Below, piece by piece: positions 1,289-11,446 of a stretch of 11,446 nucleotides of DNA. Location: the NCBI GenBank assembly GCA_030613165.1, contig JAUWMN010000022.1, positions 1-11,446 on the forward strand, in the 5' to 3' direction. Numbering within the stretch: position 1 is the first letter of the stretch; every line of letters starts with the position of its first letter. Position numbers and translations under genes: made by a program. The notes under the pieces were generated by a model that saw only the letters and a list, made by a program, of their open reading frames with translations, was not told where the DNA came from and made no database searches. This stretch comes from Desulfobacterales bacterium. GTDB lineage: Bacteria; Desulfobacterota; Desulfobacteria; Desulfobacterales; C00003106.

Positions 1289-1897
1289 CTATTGTGGATG
1301 ACACAATCTACATTTGGCTACATTTCCGACATGTATCCAGGCAATCACTCGCGGATGACATACAGAACATCTCTGCGCCTGTCCGGCGGTGGCTATAGTT
1401 TTGCCGTGCACACTGTTCCAGTTGCCGCGATGATTAATCGGCTTGGTATTTTTGTGACAGCGGATGCAAAAGACCTCATCATGGCAATAAGCGCACGATT
1501 CCCGTTGCGCCACCCCCTTGATACCATGCCCTCTGGTTTTCCAAAACCCTGTGTGATCCTTTGGACGGGTTACCTGATGGCATTTCCTGCAAGCGTCATC
1601 AGTATGGCATAGATCGCAGTCATATACATGACCGGGCTTCAGCGGAGTTTTTACCCTTCGCGCAGGTCTCACCAGTGTCTTGACTTTGTGCCCATGTCTC
1701 TTTGTCCACTTGCCAGCAGGCTTGTGATATGAAGGGAAAAATCTTTCCTGTTCGTGGCAATCGGTGCACCGGACCTCTTCCAAATGGGCATCCAGGGATA
1801 ACCCGGTCCTAATGCAAGCTGAAAGCACAAAAAACAGGATAACCGACAAAATGATCGGCACACCCGCGATAATAACTATGTGACCCGGTCGTGACAT
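1289..1897 (-). CDS. Seven-heme c-type cytochrome, lipobox or membrane anchored (inner component of porin-cytochrome conduit)
   Basis: The 202-residue product has seven CxxCH heme-binding motifs, with first cysteines at 44, 94, 103, 135, 144, 177 and 196. Ten further histidines after residue 30 are enough for bis-histidine ligation of all hemes. Residues 7-27 are strongly hydrophobic and end in LSAC (Cys28), a good lipobox, so it is a lipoprotein or, failing cleavage, signal-anchored. Two similar units, HTGFW...GHG...CAYCH and HRGNW...HGK...CSVCH, point to internal duplication of a cytochrome-c3-like module. It is the last gene of the operon, 10 bases after the beta-barrel gene, with a GGGGGT ribosome site before the ATG. 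The likely job is passing electrons from periplasmic carriers to the porin-embedded outer cytochrome. The heme count is seen directly; the partner and location are inferred. Confidence 0.85.
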   Translation of the reverse strand: MSRPGHIVIIAGVPIILSVILFFVLSACIRTGLSLDAHLEEVRCTDCHEQERFFPSYHKPAGKWTKRHGHKVKTLVRPARRVKTPLKPGHVYDCDLCHTDDACRKCHQVTRPKDHTGFWKTRGHGIKGVAQRESCAYCHDEVFCIRCHKNTKPINHRGNWNSVHGKTIATAGQAQRCSVCHPRVIAWIHVGNVAKCRLCHPQ

Positions 1898-1907
1898 AGC
1901 TTACCCC

Positions 1908-3296
1908 CTATATCTCTAGACCCACTGTGGCTATGAATCGATGTTCGTAAATATCATAGATGTCTAATTCATACCGGGCGTCAAAGTATAATCCGGTTTG
2001 AATATAATAACGGGCATCGGCATAAACTGTATAGACATCAGTCTTTTCATCAGTATCCATAAAGTAGTCATATTTATAAAGTGAATAGAAGGAACCTATA
2101 GAAATATCGATATCTTCAGGCCTCCTATATCCTAATTCTCCGCCAAAAGTTAAGATCGTATCTTCATTATTGCTGTCCATAACCTCCCAGAAATCAGCCT
2201 GCAGCGAAAAGCGCAGACCCCTTATTGGCAAATTCTCTATTATCAAAGCCAAATATTCATGATTGTAGGAATGGTTGAAATCCGTCTCCTCCTCGCCGGA
2301 GTCTAATAATCTCAATTCTGTTCCGCCGGAAAGCCAGATATCCTCGTAAAGCCCCTTCATAATGTCTATGGTGACAAGGTGGTACGGCTTTATCCGCCCG
2401 GTTAAGGCAGTATACGGAGGCACAGTTGTCGGCATGTTGTCTATTTCCTTAAATTGGTAGAAGTATGAAGCATCAACATCAAGATCTAATTCATCAAATA
2501 AGGCAGAAAACATTGTATTTATATGCCTTGGAGAGTTATTGAGCATAAAAAGGGAGATAGAGCCGTAGCGCTTATTAAAAAAGGATCGCCTGATTGCAAA
2601 TGCAGAGAGTTGGTATCGTTTTTTTTCACTCGTCCCGTATGTTCCGGCTATGTCCGGCTTTTCTTCAATGAATTGATGTTCAAGGGTTATTTTAGTAGAA
2701 TTATCTAAAAAGATATGGGCGCCTCCTCCAACCTCCCCGGCATCAAAAGAACCGCCATCCTCATAAAGACGAACAGGAAGGCCGGCATAGGCAAATGGTT
2801 TGACTCGTGTACCAAAAAGGTTAAGGTCAAGTAACAAATTAAATCCATCAAGATGGGTAGTGGCAAGCTCATGACCTACATATTGTCTCCCAACACGGGC
2901 ATACTTTATACGATCCAACTCATATAGCTCTGCCTGGCAGATATATAAATATCCATGATAGAAAGAATTCCAGGTATCATGAATGGTTCTGGTTCTATCA
3001 GTTTGATCATCATCGTCTTGGGAGTCAATGTCCTCTATCATATCTCCGGACAGGGTAAATCTGTAATGTCCCCACTTATTTTCTTTAATGGTAATGTCGG
3101 CCATCTGACGAAGTTTATGATCGTCATCCTCACCATGAGATAGATAACGCCCATCATAGCGAAACTGAAGGAGACCGGATATGGAGGGTTCGTTTCCCTC
3201 CGCAAGGGCATGTCCGGCAAAAGATCCCGAAAAGAACCAGAACAGGATCAAGAGACAACCACACACCTTACAGATCATGTTTCGCTTTCTGCTCAT
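1908..3296 (-). CDS. Outer-membrane beta-barrel protein of a porin-cytochrome conduit
   Basis: The 462-residue product starts with a Sec signal peptide (basic SRKR, hydrophobic core 11-28, likely cleavage after HALA at residue 32). The rest is made of alternating amphipathic strands rich in Tyr, Phe, Asp and Glu, separated by acidic loops such as DSQDDDDQTDRT, down to the final strand RFIATVGLEI. There are no heme motifs. The last residue is Ile, not the usual Phe/Trp. Size and context match the barrel subunits of Geobacter-type conduits (OmbB-like) better than the roughly 700-residue MtrB/PioB barrels. It sits between two multiheme cytochrome genes, with gaps of 30 and 10 bases. Its expected role is to hold cytochromes so that hemes span the outer membrane. 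An in-frame ATG at residue 7 (3278) is a possible alternative start. Family assignment rests on architecture and neighbours. Confidence 0.75.
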   Translation of the reverse strand: MSRKRNMICKVCGCLLILFWFFSGSFAGHALAEGNEPSISGLLQFRYDGRYLSHGEDDDHKLRQMADITIKENKWGHYRFTLSGDMIEDIDSQDDDDQTDRTRTIHDTWNSFYHGYLYICQAELYELDRIKYARVGRQYVGHELATTHLDGFNLLLDLNLFGTRVKPFAYAGLPVRLYEDGGSFDAGEVGGGAHIFLDNSTKITLEHQFIEEKPDIAGTYGTSEKKRYQLSAFAIRRSFFNKRYGSISLFMLNNSPRHINTMFSALFDELDLDVDASYFYQFKEIDNMPTTVPPYTALTGRIKPYHLVTIDIMKGLYEDIWLSGGTELRLLDSGEEETDFNHSYNHEYLALIIENLPIRGLRFSLQADFWEVMDSNNEDTILTFGGELGYRRPEDIDISIGSFYSLYKYDYFMDTDEKTDVYTVYADARYYIQTGLYFDARYELDIYDIYEHRFIATVGLEI

Positions 3297-3306
3297 TCCA
3301 GCTACC

Positions 3307-3318
3307 TGTAATATTACA
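3307..3318. repeat. 12-bp perfect palindrome in intercistronic gap
   Basis: TGTAATATTACA reads identically on both strands and lies in the 30-base gap between the 15-heme cytochrome stop and the barrel gene start. It could be a protein-binding site or a chance AT palindrome. It is too compact to make a stable RNA hairpin. Confidence 0.4.
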
Positions 3319-3326
3319 AGATTACT

Positions 3327-5072
3327 CTAAAATGTTCGTCTTCCAGTGTCATAGAGGTCACCGTTCGTTATTGTTGGAGCAGTCAACAGCCAGCTATCAT
3401 CCCCGCCATGGAAATGGCAATTACTACAGATTGACAGTGGGCCTTCACCATATTTGCCCTCGAAATGGCAATCTACACATTCTCCGAGGTTAGTATTATA
3501 TGGTGCGTCGGCAGTAGCAAGCTGGTGATGAATATTCCACATGCTGTCTTGGTGACACCTGAGGCATAATTCCTTCAAGTCCCTATTATCAATACCAACA
3601 GTTCCGATGTTCACTTGGCCGCCATTTACTTCCCCTCTAATCAACATCTCGCCAGGTGCTCCATGAGGCTCGTGGCAGTCGGTACAGGAAAGAACAAGTC
3701 CGGAAACCGTCCATGCGGTTGCATATGGTTCGTTAAAGAAATGGGTGTTGCTTGTGGCGACATTGGCACCGTGTTTATCTCCCCCGGCTGAATCCGGCAG
3801 AGTCACCTCGTCGCCGGTAGTTGTCCAATCGATAGGTGTGTTGGAAAGGCCAAAATTATAGGGGGCTGAACCCATGTCGGTTGTATGGCAATCCTGACAG
3901 AATGTGACGTAGCATGTCAGATTGGAGCCGTTTGTGGTGTTAGAGTCATCCGGTTCATAATCATCGCCATCCCCCCCGAAACGATAAGGGGCCTGATATA
4001 GGTTCGTATAATCACTCATCATCTCGCATGCATCGTCTCCCCATAATATCTCACCTGCAACCGAACTCCCGTGTTTGCTCGGCAATGTCATGGGCCAGCC
4101 CCTGTCGCCCTCGATATGGGGGTCCTTGTGCGCGGCATGCGGGTTATGGCAGGCGGCACAGGGGTTGGAATCAGCCGTGTATCCCCATTTTCCCGTAATA
4201 AAGGTGAGTATGTCACCGAGATTATGGGAAGAGGCGCTCGAAAAGGCCTCCTTGACATCATCCAGGGGATCATCAGTCCAACCTCCCGCTCGATAGCTGT
4301 AGCTGCGTTGCTGCGGCATGTCCTTTTGAACACTGTCACATGTCGCTTGATGGCACTGAAAGCAGAAGTTTTCAGTCTGGCTGGTCTGATTCATGGGCGC
4401 AAAGAGTAAAAGGTCATTGGTAGAACCGGCAGGCAGATCATGACAGTGGGTGCAGTCTCCTTCTGTTCCTGTGCCTGAGCGATCGACCCCATATGAGGTG
4501 TTACCATGGGCGGAATCAGCATAGGAAATGGCAGCGCTGGTGTGACAATTACTACAGTTAAAGGCACTAATATCGCTGTGGCATGAGAAACATGATACAA
4601 GGCTATTTGCTCCGGTCAGGTCTGCTCCATGGCAATCGGCACAGTTATCTGTGTCAGGCAGAGTGTGATAATCCCCATGTTGCCATTTACCGACGGCATC
4701 TTCATGGTGGCACGAACTACAATCAGAGTTCGCATCTCCCCCGTTCAAGTCATCTCCGTGACATGCTTTGCAGTTGTCAGGGTTTGCAGCATACTCTTCG
4801 CCGTGGGTGCCGGTCCATCCGCTATGATGGCAAGCTCTGCATGATACACCTGAGGTGCCCCCGTCCAGATCCTCTCCGTGACAGGCGCTACAATTTTGTG
4901 GATCTGTATAGTAGTCATTTCCGTGCTGCGGATTATCTTTCCATCCCGAAGAATGGTAGGTGACAGTTTGATCGTCGCTTCCCGGCAAGCCGTCTTCAAG
5001 AGAGCTTGTACACCCATTAAGAAGGATAACAATTACTGGTAAAAGCGAGAGAGCCTTGGATAGTCTCTTCAA
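3327..5072 (-). CDS. Fifteen-heme c-type cytochrome lipoprotein, predicted outer-surface electron carrier
   Basis: The start is taken as the TTG at 5072 because GGAGG lies 5 bases upstream and the product then opens with a classical signal MKRLSK plus hydrophobic core and lipobox LNGC (Cys21). A TTG four codons earlier (5084) is also in frame but overlaps that ribosome site. The 581-residue protein has 15 CxxCH motifs, with first cysteines at 61, 78, 101, 118, 144, 161, 173, 207, 237, 305, 392, 463, 503, 532 and 549. Six N-terminal hemes form three copies of a CxxCHGxDLxG...CxxCH module with 17 residues between paired cysteines. The CAACHNPHAAH (305-315) and CTDCHEPHG (463-471) segments resemble those of deltaproteobacterial extracellular cytochromes. 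First gene of the operon. Its likely role is to accept electrons through the barrel and pass them to external acceptors or partner cells; surface location is inferred from the conduit layout. Confidence 0.85.
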   Translation of the reverse strand: MKRLSKALSLLPVIVILLNGCTSSLEDGLPGSDDQTVTYHSSGWKDNPQHGNDYYTDPQNCSACHGEDLDGGTSGVSCRACHHSGWTGTHGEEYAANPDNCKACHGDDLNGGDANSDCSSCHHEDAVGKWQHGDYHTLPDTDNCADCHGADLTGANSLVSCFSCHSDISAFNCSNCHTSAAISYADSAHGNTSYGVDRSGTGTEGDCTHCHDLPAGSTNDLLLFAPMNQTSQTENFCFQCHQATCDSVQKDMPQQRSYSYRAGGWTDDPLDDVKEAFSSASSHNLGDILTFITGKWGYTADSNPCAACHNPHAAHKDPHIEGDRGWPMTLPSKHGSSVAGEILWGDDACEMMSDYTNLYQAPYRFGGDGDDYEPDDSNTTNGSNLTCYVTFCQDCHTTDMGSAPYNFGLSNTPIDWTTTGDEVTLPDSAGGDKHGANVATSNTHFFNEPYATAWTVSGLVLSCTDCHEPHGAPGEMLIRGEVNGGQVNIGTVGIDNRDLKELCLRCHQDSMWNIHHQLATADAPYNTNLGECVDCHFEGKYGEGPLSICSNCHFHGGDDSWLLTAPTITNGDLYDTGRRTF

Positions 5073-5396
5073 TATATCCTCCAATAGTCTTCGTCATCCA
5101 CATGACAGGGGAGAATCTATAATACGGCCCCTTCAGCAGCCGCTACTGACACTTAGAGGCCACAAAGACATACCTGATTTGCCTGGTTATGATGATCTGT
5201 ACTCCAAGTAATGGGGGGTTTTTTCAGGAAATACAAATCGATAGGAATCATCAAGTTATGATCCAAGTACAGGAAATATCATCCAAGGTCAAGCCTTAGA
5301 GGTCGTTTGCCTTAGAGGATGAACAGGTCAAACCCAATAATAAATAAGTTTGCAACTGATGCCACGCATGATAATTATAACATTGGTCCTTATCCT
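5073..5396. promoter_or_regulatory. Divergent intergenic region between cytochrome operon and molybdenum-cofactor operon
   Basis: This stretch must carry the start signals for both operons. It holds three copies of CTTAGAGG (5152-5159, 5295-5302, 5311-5318), the last two within direct repeats GCCTTAGAGG. It also holds two versions of an ordered block set GTTATGAT, (T)CCAAGTA, CAGGAAATA (5186-5233 and 5255-5278). An imperfect inverted repeat, ATCAT-caagtt-ATGAT with GG/CC flanks, spans 5244-5264. I could not identify a convincing sigma-70 or sigma-54 promoter for the cytochrome operon. The first 78 bases before 5397 are in frame with the moaE-like gene and could be coding if it starts at 5319. 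Confidence 0.5.
5350..5378 (+). promoter_or_regulatory. Weak candidate promoter for the moaE-like/moaC/fdhD/moeA operon
   Basis: TTGCAA at 5350-5355 is followed 17 bases later by AATTAT at 5373-5378, within an AT-rich ATAATTATAA run. The -10 match is poor, and GATAAT at 5370-5375 is a better hexamer but is too close. If real, it would exclude the upstream 5319 start for the first gene. Confidence 0.2.
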
Positions 5397-5753
5397 ATGA
5401 AACTCACTGCGCTAATTGACAGAATTAAATCACACCCGGACTATCCCAAGGCAGGTATGATCCTGTGCCACAACGGTGTGGTGCGAGGGACTTCCCGTGA
5501 TGGACGACCAGTTTCAGGCCTGAGTGTCACCTTTGATCGCAAGGTCTTGGACGGCATCCTTGCCGAACAGAGACAGAGGCCCGGCATCATAGATATACTG
5601 GTGGAGTTCCGGGAAGGATCGCTTAAGGTTGGCGATGACGTGATGTTTATCGTGGTAGCCGGTGACTTGCGAGACCACGTTATTCCGGTGCTGGAAGATA
5701 CTCTGAATGCCATCAAAAAACGAGCGATCCACAAGAAAGAGCACTTTGTATAA
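5397..5753 (+). CDS. MoaE-like molybdopterin synthase large-subunit family protein
   Basis: From ATG 5397 the product is 118 residues, opening MKLTALIDRIKSHPDYPKAG. MoaE is the catalytic subunit of molybdopterin synthase, which adds the dithiolene sulfurs to cyclic pyranopterin monophosphate with MoaD. Family features are a VGDDVMFIVVAG strand (78-89, like the E. coli PGDEIVFVGV stretch) and the C-terminal IKKRAIHKKE helix. In that helix Lys107 and Lys114 keep the 7-residue spacing of E. coli catalytic Lys119/Lys126. It is shorter than E. coli MoaE (150) and opens with an MILCHNGVVRGTSRDG segment, which marks a divergent MoaE-like branch that I recall from sulfate reducers. A start at 5319 (144 residues) is possible, but the extra 26 residues look unlike a protein core and neither start has a good ribosome site. 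The Moco gene context supports the call. Confidence 0.75.
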   Translation: MKLTALIDRIKSHPDYPKAGMILCHNGVVRGTSRDGRPVSGLSVTFDRKVLDGILAEQRQRPGIIDILVEFREGSLKVGDDVMFIVVAGDLRDHVIPVLEDTLNAIKKRAIHKKEHFV

Positions 5754-5768
5754 AAAGATGTAAATATA

Positions 5769-5807
5769 CACCGCAGAGCTTTCTACAATATAGCAATCTT
5801 TGCGGTG
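5769..5807 (+). promoter_or_regulatory. Hairpin in the moaE-like/moaC gap
   Basis: CACCGCAGAG (5769-5778) can pair with CTTTGCGGTG (5798-5807), 10 pairs including one G-U, around a 19-base loop. No T-run follows, so it is not a standard terminator. It may modulate read-through, RNA processing or translation of moaC, which starts 24 bases further on. Confidence 0.4.
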
Positions 5808-5830
5808 AAGTCTGACTCGAAAGGAAACTC

Positions 5831-6313
5831 ATGCCAACATTCACACATCTTGATGAGGAAGGGCGGGTTCGCATGGTCGATGTGTCCGAAAAAGCATCCA
5901 CTGTCCGGGAGGCAGTGGCTCAGGGAGTAATTACAATGAAGCCCGAAACCTTTGACCTGATCAGTGAGCAAAAGGTAAAAAAGGGAAATGTATTTGAGAC
6001 TGCACGTATCGCTGGTATTATGGCTGCGAAAAGGACCGCAGACCTCATTCCCTTGTGTCATCCGCTCTCCGTCACGCCCCTGCAGGTAGATTTTTTCCCG
6101 CTCCCTGCGACCCACAGTCTCCGGATAGAAGCGGTTGTGCGGGTGCTCTGGCAAACCGGGGTGGAAATGGAAGCCCTGACAGCCGTGTCGGTTGCTGCCT
6201 TGACCATCTACGACATGTGCAAGTCATACGATCGCGCCATGACCGTCTCTGATATTTACCTGCTCAAGAAATCCGGAGGCAAGAGCGGGACCTTTGTGAG
6301 GGAATCATCATGA
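5831..6313 (+). CDS. moaC: Cyclic pyranopterin monophosphate synthase MoaC
   Basis: The 160-residue protein aligns without gaps through its active site to E. coli MoaC numbering. MoaC forms cyclic pyranopterin monophosphate from the 3',8-cyclo-GTP made by MoaA, the second half of the first step in molybdopterin synthesis, in the cytoplasm. All key residues are present: Lys51 in KKGNVF, His77 in IPLCHPL, Glu112 and Glu114 in GVEMEALTA, Asp128 and Lys131 in YDMCK, and the closing KSGGKSG loop (147-153). The ATG has an AAGGAAA ribosome site. Its stop overlaps the fdhD start by 4 bases (ATGA), which indicates translational coupling. MoaA and MoaD, needed for the same pathway, are not in this window. 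Confidence 0.97.
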   Translation: MPTFTHLDEEGRVRMVDVSEKASTVREAVAQGVITMKPETFDLISEQKVKKGNVFETARIAGIMAAKRTADLIPLCHPLSVTPLQVDFFPLPATHSLRIEAVVRVLWQTGVEMEALTAVSVAALTIYDMCKSYDRAMTVSDIYLLKKSGGKSGTFVRESS

Positions 6314-7095
6314 AAGATGCTTTTACTTATGATGTGATCGAATTTACCGGAGGCCGCTTTCAAGAAGCTCGGGTGACTGCCATCCAGGAAGTTCCTCTGA
6401 CCATCTATCTCAATGGTCATGAGGTGGTCACCCTCATGTGTACGGGAAAAAGCCCTAAGTTTCTGGCCGTGGGATTCTTAAAGTCTGACGGGCTGATTAC
6501 AGATCGGAAGCAACTAAAGAGTGTCCAGGTTGAGGAAGAGCCTGAGAGGTTCAGGGTGAACGTTGAGACATCTCACGATCCCTTCAAGATCCAACGCTTG
6601 GAGCGAACTATTACATCCGGATGCGGGAAGGGTACAAATTTTGAGCGTAATGTAGAAGTCATTGCCTCGACAACTGTTAAGGCAAAGCTGGCTGTGAAAC
6701 CTGAGCAGATCCTAAAGTTGGCGGATGAACTCGACGAACGCTCAACCCTTTACCGGGCTACCGGGGGGTGCCATAACGCCATACTTGCTACATCGGAAAA
6801 GATTCTGATCTTCCGTGAAGATATAGGCAGGCATAACGCCATTGACATGATTTGCGGTCAATGTTTTTTGGATGACATTCCCACCGAGGACAAGCTCATC
6901 GTCTCCACCGGCCGTATTGCTTCAGAGATTCTCTTGAAGGCGATACGACTTGGGGTGCCCATCCTTGTGTCCATGTCGGCTGCGACACGCTATTCCATTG
7001 ACCTGGCCCGAAGAACCAATATGACACTCATCGGACACGTACGACAAGGGCGTATGGTCGTTTACAATCAGGCAGGGAGAATAGCGGGGTTATGA
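6310..7095 (+). CDS. fdhD: Formate dehydrogenase accessory sulfurtransferase FdhD
   Basis: The 261-residue protein shows the FdhD hallmarks in order: EVPLTIYLNG (27-36), TSGCGKG (102-108), ATGGCHNA (150-157), REDIGRHNAIDM (169-180), STGR (199-202) and SMSAAT (221-226). FdhD binds the molybdopterin-guanine dinucleotide cofactor and delivers sulfur from a cysteine desulfurase to it before insertion into formate dehydrogenase. E. coli uses a CxxC pair at 121/124. Here the matching loop has only Cys105, while Cys154 lies in the GGCHNA motif, so sulfur transfer may rest on a single cysteine at that loop. It is coupled by ATGA overlaps to moaC before it and moeA after it. Its presence implies a Mo- or W-dependent formate dehydrogenase elsewhere in the genome. 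Confidence 0.95.
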   Translation: MKDAFTYDVIEFTGGRFQEARVTAIQEVPLTIYLNGHEVVTLMCTGKSPKFLAVGFLKSDGLITDRKQLKSVQVEEEPERFRVNVETSHDPFKIQRLERTITSGCGKGTNFERNVEVIASTTVKAKLAVKPEQILKLADELDERSTLYRATGGCHNAILATSEKILIFREDIGRHNAIDMICGQCFLDDIPTEDKLIVSTGRIASEILLKAIRLGVPILVSMSAATRYSIDLARRTNMTLIGHVRQGRMVVYNQAGRIAGL

Positions 7096-8330
7096 CTGGC
7101 AAAGAATTTTTCAAAGGGACCCCCCTGGCAACCGTACTCGAACTGACTCGTACCTTTCCGTGTGTCAGTGAAGAGGTCCTCCCCTTGGATCAGTGTGTCG
7201 GCCGCATTCTATCCACAGATATCGTCTCTCAGATCAATCTTCCGGAATTCAACCGTGCGACCATGGATGGCTATGCAGTTCAGGCCCGTTCGACATTTGG
7301 TGCTTCAGAGAGTATGCCGGCCCTGTTCACAATTGTTGGGGCAATCGAGATGGGAGAGGTGCCCACGGTTTCGGTAAAAGCCGGGGAAGCGGTTCGGATT
7401 GCAACGGGTGGTATGCTCCCGGATGGGTCAGACAGTGTGGTGATGGTGGAACATGCCGAGGCACTTGATGACTATACCCTTGAGGTCTTTAAGAGTGCCG
7501 CCCCATTACAGCACGTCATAGAGATCGGCGAAGACTTCCGTTTGGGTGAGCAGGTCCTTTCAAAGGGAAGCCCCTTACGTCCTCAGGAAATGGGTGTTTT
7601 GGCCGCACTTGGCAAAACCCACGTCCCGGTTTACAGGCAACCCATTGTAGCCATCATCTCCTCCGGCGACGAAATTGTACCCATTGAAAAGCCTCCGGGC
7701 CTTTCCCAATTGCGTGATGTCAATGCTTATACCCTCACGGGCCTTGTCAGGCTGTCCGGCGGAGTTCCCCTTTATCTCGGGATTGTTAGGGACAACCTTG
7801 ATGAATTGGATCGCTTCTGTCGAAGCGCGTTGGACCAGGCAGACATGGTCTTGATTTCAGGCGGCAGCTCGGTAGGCTCCCGCGATTTCACTCTAGAGGT
7901 AATCAAAGGACTCCCGGATTCTGAGGTCCTGGTCCATGGTGTTTCAATCAGCCCCGGAAAGCCCACTATTTTAGCCCGCAGCAAGCAAAAGGCTATCTGG
8001 GGGCTTCCCGGGCAGGTCGCATCGGCCATGGTTGTGTTCCAAGTTATGGTTCGCCCCATGCTTGAGACTATAGGGGGGCTTTCAGAAGACCGGTTAGGCG
8101 CAGCATACGAGGTCTCTGCCGTGTTAAGCCGCAACCTTGCGTCAGTTCAGGGGCGGGAGGATTACGTCCGTGTAAAGCTAGTTCATAGGGCAAATCAGAT
8201 GTATGCCGAGCCCATTCTGGGCAAATCCGGCCTGATCCACACTATGGTGAAAGCAGACGGGCTAATCAGGATCGATATAAATTCAGAGGGATTGGATAAG
8301 GGAGCCCCTGTGAGGGTTATTCTATTCTAA
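7092..8330 (+). CDS. moeA: Molybdopterin molybdenumtransferase MoeA
   Basis: The 412-residue length and domain order match MoeA: an N-terminal domain with NRATMDGYAVQA (54-65, Asp59 at the E. coli position), then the MogA-like domain with SSGDEIVP (190-197), ISGGSSVG (255-262) followed by Asp265, SPGKP (287-291) and GLPGQVASA (304-312), then the C-terminal beta-barrel domain (about 330-412). MoeA inserts molybdate into adenylylated molybdopterin to give Moco, in the cytoplasm. It could equally handle tungstate in an organism with W-dependent formate dehydrogenase; the sequence cannot tell these apart by eye. It is the last gene of the operon, starting 4 bases inside fdhD. No classical terminator follows; a 6-bp hairpin at 8371-8386 lacks a T-run. 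Confidence 0.97.
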   Translation: MTGKEFFKGTPLATVLELTRTFPCVSEEVLPLDQCVGRILSTDIVSQINLPEFNRATMDGYAVQARSTFGASESMPALFTIVGAIEMGEVPTVSVKAGEAVRIATGGMLPDGSDSVVMVEHAEALDDYTLEVFKSAAPLQHVIEIGEDFRLGEQVLSKGSPLRPQEMGVLAALGKTHVPVYRQPIVAIISSGDEIVPIEKPPGLSQLRDVNAYTLTGLVRLSGGVPLYLGIVRDNLDELDRFCRSALDQADMVLISGGSSVGSRDFTLEVIKGLPDSEVLVHGVSISPGKPTILARSKQKAIWGLPGQVASAMVVFQVMVRPMLETIGGLSEDRLGAAYEVSAVLSRNLASVQGREDYVRVKLVHRANQMYAEPILGKSGLIHTMVKADGLIRIDINSEGLDKGAPVRVILF

Positions 8331-9512: not shown

Positions 9513-11446
9513 ATGAAATCAAAAAAGGCATCTCTTAGCCTATCTTTCATGATTTTGTCCTCATTATTCGGGGTAGTCTTATCCAGCAATCCGGTCCTGG
9601 CGCTGGACGTGACTGTCTGTAAGCCGGCGGGATGTGATTATACTGTCATCCAAACGGCTATTAATGCTGTCTCCGCTGCTGGTGGTGGGACGGTTACGGT
9701 AACAGATAATAATATATATGATGAGCTTATTACGATGAAAGACGGAGTAGATGTGGTAAGTGATCCATATAAGGCGCATATAAGGCGTTCTTCCGGAATG
9801 GGTCGGGAGGAAGTTGTAAGTTTTTCCGGAGCAATTACCTGTGACCTGCGAGGGTTTGAGATAACAAATCCGGCAGGCGGTGCAGGAATTTTTATGGATG
9901 GTTCGGCGCCAGGAATTACTGCTACTATCGAAAACTGTGATATCCATGATTGCGACAGGGGCGCTGGAATTAGATTGAACGGAGTTGTAAAGCCGACCAT
10001 CACAGGGAGTAACATCTACAGCAATGATAGGGCAGGAATAGCTACTGCTAAAATGATGGCTACGGACCAAGTGACATCTGGTTCTTCTATAACTATTAAG
10101 GGAACTACCATAGGGGGTAGCGGTCAGGGTAATGGTAATGCTGGCATAAGGCTGGATGGCTCTGGAAGTGGTATTCAGGTTGCAATCGGCGGCAGCGTCG
10201 TTGACGACGCTAACACGATTTCTTACAACACAGATGCAGGAATAAGACTGGAGGATATAGACCAGGTCAGTATAGAGAATAATGATATCTCTAACAACTC
10301 AGAGGCAGGGATTCTTCTTATTGATGTGAGCACAGTAAGCCCACATATTAAGAATAACGATATTCATGATCATACCGATGAAGCCGGAATAAATATTGGA
10401 GGTGCCTCAAATGTGACTATTACCGGAGATAATTATAATAGTCTTATCCATGACAATCATGCCGGGATCGTGTTTTACGTTTCCAGGAATATGCGTCTTA
10501 CCGGGAGTGCCAGTTCCCAACCAGTATCGATTACAGGGAGTATGATTTACAATAATACCAAAGCCGGGATTGCCGTAATTGATAACGTTACCGGGACAAT
10601 AACCATAGATGATAACAAGATTTATCAAAACACAAAATCGGGGGTCGGAATCTTTAATAAGTGTACAGCCATTATTACCGATAATGACATCTATACTCAT
10701 ACTAGCGCCGCTGGAGTCTTCACGGGAGACTGGTCAGGGACTCCTCCACCAACCGGGACAGGGTTCTATAGAACCAACGGCCCTGCCAGCCTTACTATCA
10801 AACGAAATAAAGTGCACGGTAATATCGCGGGTATTCGTGTGGATCATGCCTCCGGTACTATTAACAATAATCTGGCTTATGGCAACTCCATGGTAGGCAT
10901 CAGGTTTAGTGGGGACAACACCGACCCCTATGCACCGTTTACGAGCTCCTGGGGCATTACGGAAATTATGAATAATACCGTGGCAGACAACGGTAGCTAT
11001 GTAGAGGAATTCCTTGAAGATAGAGGCAGTGGGTTTGCATATGATGCCATCTACGTCACTGCGGATCCGATTACAGGGCTTACCCGCAACTTTAATGATC
11101 CTCCCGTTGGGGCCACTCAAAATCCAATAACAATAAAAAATAATATTGTAGCCAATAACAAAAAGGCGGGTATCAAGTATTGTGCTGACAATTCAGCTAA
11201 TGATCGTTCCTACAACCTGTTTTACATGAATTTCCAGGAGACCTGTGCTACCGGCGGGAGTATAGATTGTGGTAGAATGTGTAGATCACGAACTCTCGGC
11301 AAGTGCTATGCTCCTGATGTAAACTGCTGCAGCGAAGAAGAGAGTTGGGTACATGCGCGGGTCGCATTTCCGGGGGCTTGGGCTACCGGTGAAATATGCG
11401 GACAAGACCCGTTGTTTAATGCCGACTATACCCTTCTGACCGGTTC
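9513..11446 (+). CDS. Secreted right-handed parallel beta-helix repeat protein (partial, runs past right edge)
   Basis: ATG 9513 has a strong ribosome site (AAGGAGG, 8 bases upstream) and the frame is open for 644 codons to the window end. Residues 1-30 are a Sec signal peptide (KSKK, hydrophobic core, cleavage after VLA). The TIQ-like opening (YTVIQTAINAVSAAGGGTVTV, about 43-63) and repeated N-D-I-x-x-N...AGI turns are typical of pectate-lyase-like/PbH1 beta helices. AGI/VGI-type rungs occur near residues 124, 151, 174, 210, 242, 265, 291, 317, 351, 377, 400, 439, 461 and 552. Late residues DPLFNADYTLLTG (632-644) resemble the end of such domains, so the fold may finish soon after. A segment at 557-629 has eight cysteines. 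Such proteins bind or cleave polysaccharides or act as surface proteins; no catalytic residues could be identified, so the function is unassigned. It has its own promoter region and is not in the moeA operon. Confidence 0.85.
   Translation, partial: MKSKKASLSLSFMILSSLFGVVLSSNPVLALDVTVCKPAGCDYTVIQTAINAVSAAGGGTVTVTDNNIYDELITMKDGVDVVSDPYKAHIRRSSGMGREEVVSFSGAITCDLRGFEITNPAGGAGIFMDGSAPGITATIENCDIHDCDRGAGIRLNGVVKPTITGSNIYSNDRAGIATAKMMATDQVTSGSSITIKGTTIGGSGQGNGNAGIRLDGSGSGIQVAIGGSVVDDANTISYNTDAGIRLEDIDQVSIENNDISNNSEAGILLIDVSTVSPHIKNNDIHDHTDEAGINIGGASNVTITGDNYNSLIHDNHAGIVFYVSRNMRLTGSASSQPVSITGSMIYNNTKAGIAVIDNVTGTITIDDNKIYQNTKSGVGIFNKCTAIITDNDIYTHTSAAGVFTGDWSGTPPPTGTGFYRTNGPASLTIKRNKVHGNIAGIRVDHASGTINNNLAYGNSMVGIRFSGDNTDPYAPFTSSWGITEIMNNTVADNGSYVEEFLEDRGSGFAYDAIYVTADPITGLTRNFNDPPVGATQNPITIKNNIVANNKKAGIKYCADNSANDRSYNLFYMNFQETCATGGSIDCGRMCRSRTLGKCYAPDVNCCSEEESWVHARVAFPGAWATGEICGQDPLFNADYTLLTG

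Follow-up and report, generated by a model that had tools for sequence, protein, structure and literature searches.

The window analysed here is an 11,446-nucleotide stretch of a Desulfobacterales genome (contig JAUWMN010000022.1), in which three adjacent minus-strand genes had been read in an initial annotation as a porin-cytochrome conduit operon. In the order outer cytochrome, barrel, inner cytochrome, they encode a 15-heme lipoprotein (3327-5072), a 462-residue outer-membrane beta-barrel protein (1908-3296) and a 7-heme cytochrome c of the Cytochrome_C7 type (1289-1897). The positions, the strand and the gaps of 30 bases (15-heme/barrel) and 10 bases (barrel/7-heme) are as first annotated, and counting of CXXCH motifs again gave 15 and 7 hemes. 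In 2000 residue shuffles, the mean CXXCH number was 0.12 for the 15-heme protein and 0.09 for the 7-heme protein, with maxima of 3 and 2. The lipoboxes (LNGC in the 15-heme protein; LSAC at residues 25-28 of the 7-heme protein) and the signal peptide of the barrel protein were also read correctly. The 15-heme gene has a TTG start five bases past a GGAGG (5078-5082, minus strand), its likely ribosome-binding site; a longer TTG start of the same open reading frame, at 5084, sits upstream of this GGAGG. The relative G450 (locus L036) keeps the trio together amid preceding genes that differ from those of the window, so we regard the trio as a unit, presumably a co-transcribed operon.

The AlphaFold model of the 462-residue protein (mean predicted local distance difference test score, pLDDT, 82; predicted template-modelling score 0.75) contains 22 strands as assigned by DSSP, which backs the barrel proposed initially. 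Closure of the barrel was judged solely indirectly, from near end-to-end alignment with solved barrels. The strand number falls within the 18-22 predicted strands given for porin-cytochrome (Pcc) clusters in the available text of PMC4245776. The best structural matches of the model were ushers, TonB-dependent receptors and porins, and no MtrB-like chain was among the best 50 matches listed in either fold search, which excludes nothing. Neither Pfam (at E 0.01) nor NCBIfam (at E 0.1) matched the protein, and its profile matched no sequence of a solved structure at E up to 10. Profile-profile comparison with four Pcc-like sets, recognised by gene layout and not by name, gave E values of 4e-10 (344 columns), 3e-19 (364 columns), 6e-8 (101 columns) and 2e-92 (415 columns); two presumed outer-membrane proteins from the same genome as the window barrel, used as single-sequence controls, gave 0.33 and 0.05. 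This indicates homology to other Pcc barrels at the profile level; a one-to-one BLASTP comparison with a 12-heme-type barrel gave E 2e-4. In a tree of 39 barrels, 26 rows including the window formed one fully supported branch, separate from the OmbB-like, 5-heme, 10-heme and 12-heme groups; because long branches meet near the base, as the program warns, the deeper order is not trustworthy. By its profile, the barrel represents a divergent branch of the Pcc barrels.

A protein search returned 38 proteins, the window's own included, and a second, broader search, which scored the best 7995 candidates by shared words, returned the same 38. The barrel profile matched at least 21 of 395 genomes of the phylum (E 1e-5) and at least 7 of 242 genomes of the order (E 1e-3), and a broader barrel profile matched at least 13 of 389 genomes of the class (E 1e-10). 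The window's genome is included in each of these counts, which are lower bounds with differing cut-offs, at most 4 to 6 candidates having been scored in many genomes. Barrels were found in 38 distinct places in 33 genomes. Directly downstream of the barrel lies a gene with at least four CXXCH motifs in 37 of these places, and the remaining place ends at a contig edge; the downstream heme counts are minima, several genes being cut by the fetched flank. At L033 a fragment of the barrel is followed by a multiheme gene of the outer type. Across 23 wider loci, all 23 barrels but none of 154 other genes (those of at least 150 residues; L002, L003 and barrel fragments below 150 residues were left out) are followed within 100 bases by a heme-array gene. 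The initial annotation was to be refuted if homologues of the three genes never occurred together, and in relatives they do stand side by side.

The outer cytochrome gene lies upstream of the barrel in four of the six close loci (window, G450, G554 and G686), and G686 has the C-terminal 127 residues of the outer cytochrome alone on its contig. The sister branch (L037, L038, L040, L041) has the order barrel, inner, outer, unlike the window. More distant matches have layouts that resemble those of the Geobacter conduits. L048 has a barrel, an 8-heme protein and a 9-12-heme lipoprotein, an arrangement that stands in tandem in L050; L049 and L052 are 5-heme sets whose outer cytochromes are very large, L046 and L047 are 10-heme sets, and L042-L045 are 12-heme sets. 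A search of five near genomes with the 12-heme-type barrel alignment, run without a positive control, gave no match. Truncated barrels at L039 8901-9305 (134 residues) and L035 161-559 (132 residues) adjoin multiheme genes, and a full barrel is present elsewhere in both genomes. One barrel of the window's branch, P0022, together with a 10-CXXCH cytochrome of that branch, P0056, is listed under a Spirochaetota bacterium (longest contig 180,232 bases), which would reflect either interphylum transfer or a misassigned contig.

The inner cytochrome showed heme-protein domains alone in Pfam and NCBIfam, and both cytochrome sequences had only weak matches to solved structures. Its 7 hemes lie within the 5-14 reported for inner Pcc cytochromes, it directly follows the barrel, and its signal sequence suggests a periplasmic location. 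In alignments with the 11-heme inner cytochromes of sister conduits (L037-L040; hhalign with L037), these 7 hemes correspond to the C-terminal seven, in the same order. The hhalign E values were 4e-50 for the 11-heme partner and 2e-29 for the 12-heme partner, well below those of two unrelated multiheme control proteins (6e-11 and 1e-10). Among 23 homologues, 11 have 7 CXXCH motifs, one has 8, four have 6 and one has 4, the low-count forms (6 and 4) being partly fragments; the other six have 10-12 (12 once, 11 twice, 10 three times). The long forms P0050 and P0056 and the 8-heme P0055 probably belong with the barrels P0013, P0022 and P0017, which are listed with longest contigs of identical length. 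Because the sister branch has 11 hemes, a four-heme loss is the simpler reading: by parsimony, and with the root not proven, an 11-heme ancestor would have lost its four N-terminal hemes in the subclade of the window. The inner cytochrome of L041 also has 7 hemes but lacks other hemes than that of the window, so the protein may have been shortened on several occasions. We rejected the view that the 7-heme partner is typically lipid-anchored, as the lipobox recurs at that place in one of the 23 homologues (P0039, 90% identical); P0052 and P0055 have a Cys there outside a lipobox consensus (all judged by eye).

The outer protein likewise gave heme-protein matches in Pfam and NCBIfam (Paired_CXXCH_1, Cytochrome_C7 and cytochrome c3 among those from Pfam), plus one weak match that looks like chance. 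Its motifs fall into an N-terminal array of 7 (first Cys at residues 61-173), arranged as three closely similar pairs and a single, and a core of 8 (first Cys at residues 207-549). Homologues have 13 CXXCH motifs in G450 and 10 in G554. The C-terminal core is shared, with 8 motifs in the window and G450 and 7 in G554, and the N-terminal array varies, with 7, 5 and 3 motifs, respectively. The number 15 therefore reflects repeat number and is not a class mark, and the surface partner would vary as N-terminal heme units are gained and lost. The lipobox region resembles the N-terminal region of the L041 outer protein (39% over about 100 residues). With 15 CXXCH motifs, the protein lies within the 1-15 CX2CH hemes of outer Pcc cytochromes and is encoded just upstream of the barrel; it is predicted to face outward at the cell surface. 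Neither trio cytochrome contains a CX3CH or CX4CH motif, the odd heme sites that were sought.

Elsewhere in the same genome (L054 complement 215-1435, contig C169), a gene encodes a paralogue of the outer cytochrome core with 47% identity. A single TGA in its reading frame coincides with the first Cys codon of a CXXCH motif, and two relatives read Cys at this place. Rfam gave no match to a selenocysteine insertion sequence (SECIS), and the fold after the TGA was not unusually stable (z 0.73). The selB gene was over its cut-off in seven of eight near genomes, not in the window's own incomplete genome. The TGA may be a mutation, an error or a selenocysteine codon.

Because of the 22 strands, the profile kinship to Pcc barrels and the multiheme gene downstream in 37 of 38 places, we consider the trio very likely to be a Pcc-type conduit operon across the outer membrane, its barrel presumably sheathing the 7-heme chain, in support of the initial annotation. 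Several observations weigh against this assignment, which is made from sequence and predicted structure. One-to-one BLASTP of the barrel against an OmbB-like barrel found one short shared stretch (E 0.026), and the 7-heme protein matched an OmaB-like protein at E 2e-12, which does not clearly exceed the heme-motif controls. The 7-heme protein gave no confident structural model (pLDDT 47). Among the six close loci, G721 (L002) yielded no 15-heme homologue in the 395 bases upstream or in its 89%-complete genome, and the G763 contig begins inside the barrel. Truncated barrel copies stand next to intact multiheme genes in L033 and L034.

On the plan of known Pcc conduits, the 7-heme protein, housed in the barrel, would exchange electrons with periplasmic carriers on one side and with the 15-heme lipoprotein on the cell surface on the other; that lipoprotein would in turn contact a mineral, another cell or a dissolved redox-active compound. 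The position of the heme chain inside the barrel, the movement of electrons through the complex, the direction of their flow and a part in extracellular or interspecies electron transfer are all presumed from this analogy.

The initial annotation had also taken the pairing of 15 and 7 hemes for a different version of the conduit. This does not hold: the ranges in the available text of PMC4245776 (18-22 strands, 5-14 inner hemes, 1-15 outer CX2CH hemes) cover both counts, and the counts vary among relatives, so we rejected the pairing as the mark of a new version. We likewise dropped total heme number as a conduit constant, L041 having 7 inner and 6 CX2CH outer hemes. Like OmbB-OmaB-OmcB, the Pcc conduit of Geobacter sulfurreducens, the window trio combines a barrel with a small inner and a large outer multiheme cytochrome, and barrels of OmbB-like sets, recognised by layout only, are related to its barrel at the profile level. 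However, barrel identity is too low for BLASTP, the inner and outer hemes number 7 and 15 here and 8 and 12 there, the order is outer-barrel-inner and not barrel-inner-outer, and the match of the OmaB-like protein to the inner cytochrome does not clearly exceed those of the heme-motif controls. The Ext conduits (ExtABCD, ExtEFG, ExtHIJKL) follow the same plan with widely varying heme numbers, according to the available part of PMC6148476; the 5-heme-inner clusters L049 and L052, set beside Ext here, match the window barrel profile over 101 columns only. MtrCAB of Shewanella works alike, with a sheathed heme chain and a surface cytochrome, but MtrB is larger (28 predicted strands in the available text of PMC4245776) and MtrA has 10 hemes, whereas the window trio has 22 strands and 7 hemes and thus lacks both hallmarks of the Mtr type; its barrel is without a Pfam match. 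Rather than a novel type of machinery, the trio is probably a remote relation of the porin-cytochrome conduits known from Geobacter.

Among sulfate-reducing Desulfobacterota, OetABI and the second conduit of Seep-SRB1g (LWX52_07950-07960) likewise comprise a porin, an inner and an outer cytochrome, as excerpted from PMC10553843, and were likened to the window trio by description only. The same excerpts describe the further Seep-SRB1g conduit as being without identifiable Geobacter homologues. The branch of the window may be this so far nameless second conduit type of the bacterial partners of anaerobic methanotrophic archaea (ANME); we found no printed name for it in a single open-access library, supplementary files left out.

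The genome of the window (1.77 Mb in 286 contigs, 67% complete) contains a fragment of aprA, a gene over its cut-off in five of eight genomes examined. The dsrA gene was over its cut-off in five of nine genomes, one of the same genus, and was not found in the window's 67%-complete genome. Because aprA and dsrA occur in relatives, the organism likely belongs to a sulfate-reducing lineage.

Sulfate reduction inside the cell makes inward flow a serious alternative, to which we would give a nearly even chance: the sulfate reducer would take electrons from a partner, by direct interspecies electron transfer, or from reduced minerals. This concerns direction and is compatible with the conduit itself. 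With aprA and dsrA in relatives, an internal acceptor is likely; the contig record of one relative bears the label CSMAG_806, also used by a global cold-seep catalogue (PMC10491686, available part); and conduits of this kind have been proposed for electron uptake by ANME partners in the available text of PMC10553843. On the other hand, the genome holds a NiFe-hydrogenase-like gene pair (L057, named by eye), no sign of a partner or of uptake was seen here, and sequence cannot tell direction.

The other two alternatives question what the barrel or the surface protein does. The 15-heme protein could be the catalytic end of an extracellular reductase, for example of a soluble oxyanion, and not a wire to solids or cells. 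Its variable N-terminal array would suit this, as would the frequent replacement of outer partners while periplasmic parts are kept, described in the available text of PMC6148476; but the Pfam and NCBIfam matches of the cytochromes include no catalytic domain and the CX3CH and CX4CH motifs are absent, other kinds of odd heme site not having been sought, and we hold this reading improbable. Less probable still is an ordinary porin or exporter with the cytochromes as mere neighbours, or a barrel that helps to export the 15-heme protein. The matches to ushers, TonB-dependent receptors and porins agree with such a function, as they might for any large barrel, but the multiheme gene that follows the barrel in 37 of 38 places, and none of the 154 other genes in the wider loci, speaks against it, as does the failure of the two presumed outer-membrane proteins to match the barrel profile.

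Within the Pcc-type assignment, a bolder and rather doubtful proposal is that the branch forms a separate Desulfobacterales radiation whose wire is modular at either end. Its inner cytochrome would have shed four N-terminal hemes (11, 8, 7) down to the seven that cross the barrel, the surface cytochrome would add N-terminal units, and the barrel would fix the middle while the ends are tuned to partners. Inner cytochromes with 11, 8 and 7 hemes, graded by nature, would allow a test of how many hemes a membrane crossing needs. Desulfobacterales conduits are easily missed, BLASTP being weak where profiles link the barrel to OmbB-like ones; SEEP-SRB1 genomes had been surveyed before by BLASTP with known porins, and none were found, according to the available text of PMC5539420. 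With a profile of the window's branch, electron-conduit genes could be mapped across uncultured sulfate reducers, candidates for interspecies electron transfer among them.

Further multiheme cytochromes are encoded in the same genome. Two adjacent proteins on contig C99 (L053 9646-12588) have 16 and at least 22 CXXCH motifs in doubled CXXCH repeats, and comparable arrays are present in G554 and in all three further genomes examined from the genus. On contig C169 (L054 6528-13317), successive genes encode an 11-heme cytochrome, a 12-heme lipoprotein, two beta-propeller proteins and a 711-residue protein that weakly matches a barrel. These may form a further surface redox cluster, which had no match to the Pcc barrel profile.

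Scanning the window with Rfam (gathering thresholds) and for tRNAs gave no match, and a promoter scan (14 sites versus 10.5 in shuffles) and a terminator scan (7 versus 4.2) were uninformative. A porin-like gene lies at 2-793 on the minus strand, its Porin_O_P match under the cut-off. Divergent from the conduit operon are moaE, moaC, fdhD and moeA (5319-8330); moaC, fdhD and moeA each have 4-base overlaps, and the MoaE match is comparatively weak (50.5 bits). At 9513-11444, a NosD-like right-handed beta-helix protein, which begins with a signal-like stretch, runs off the end of the window.

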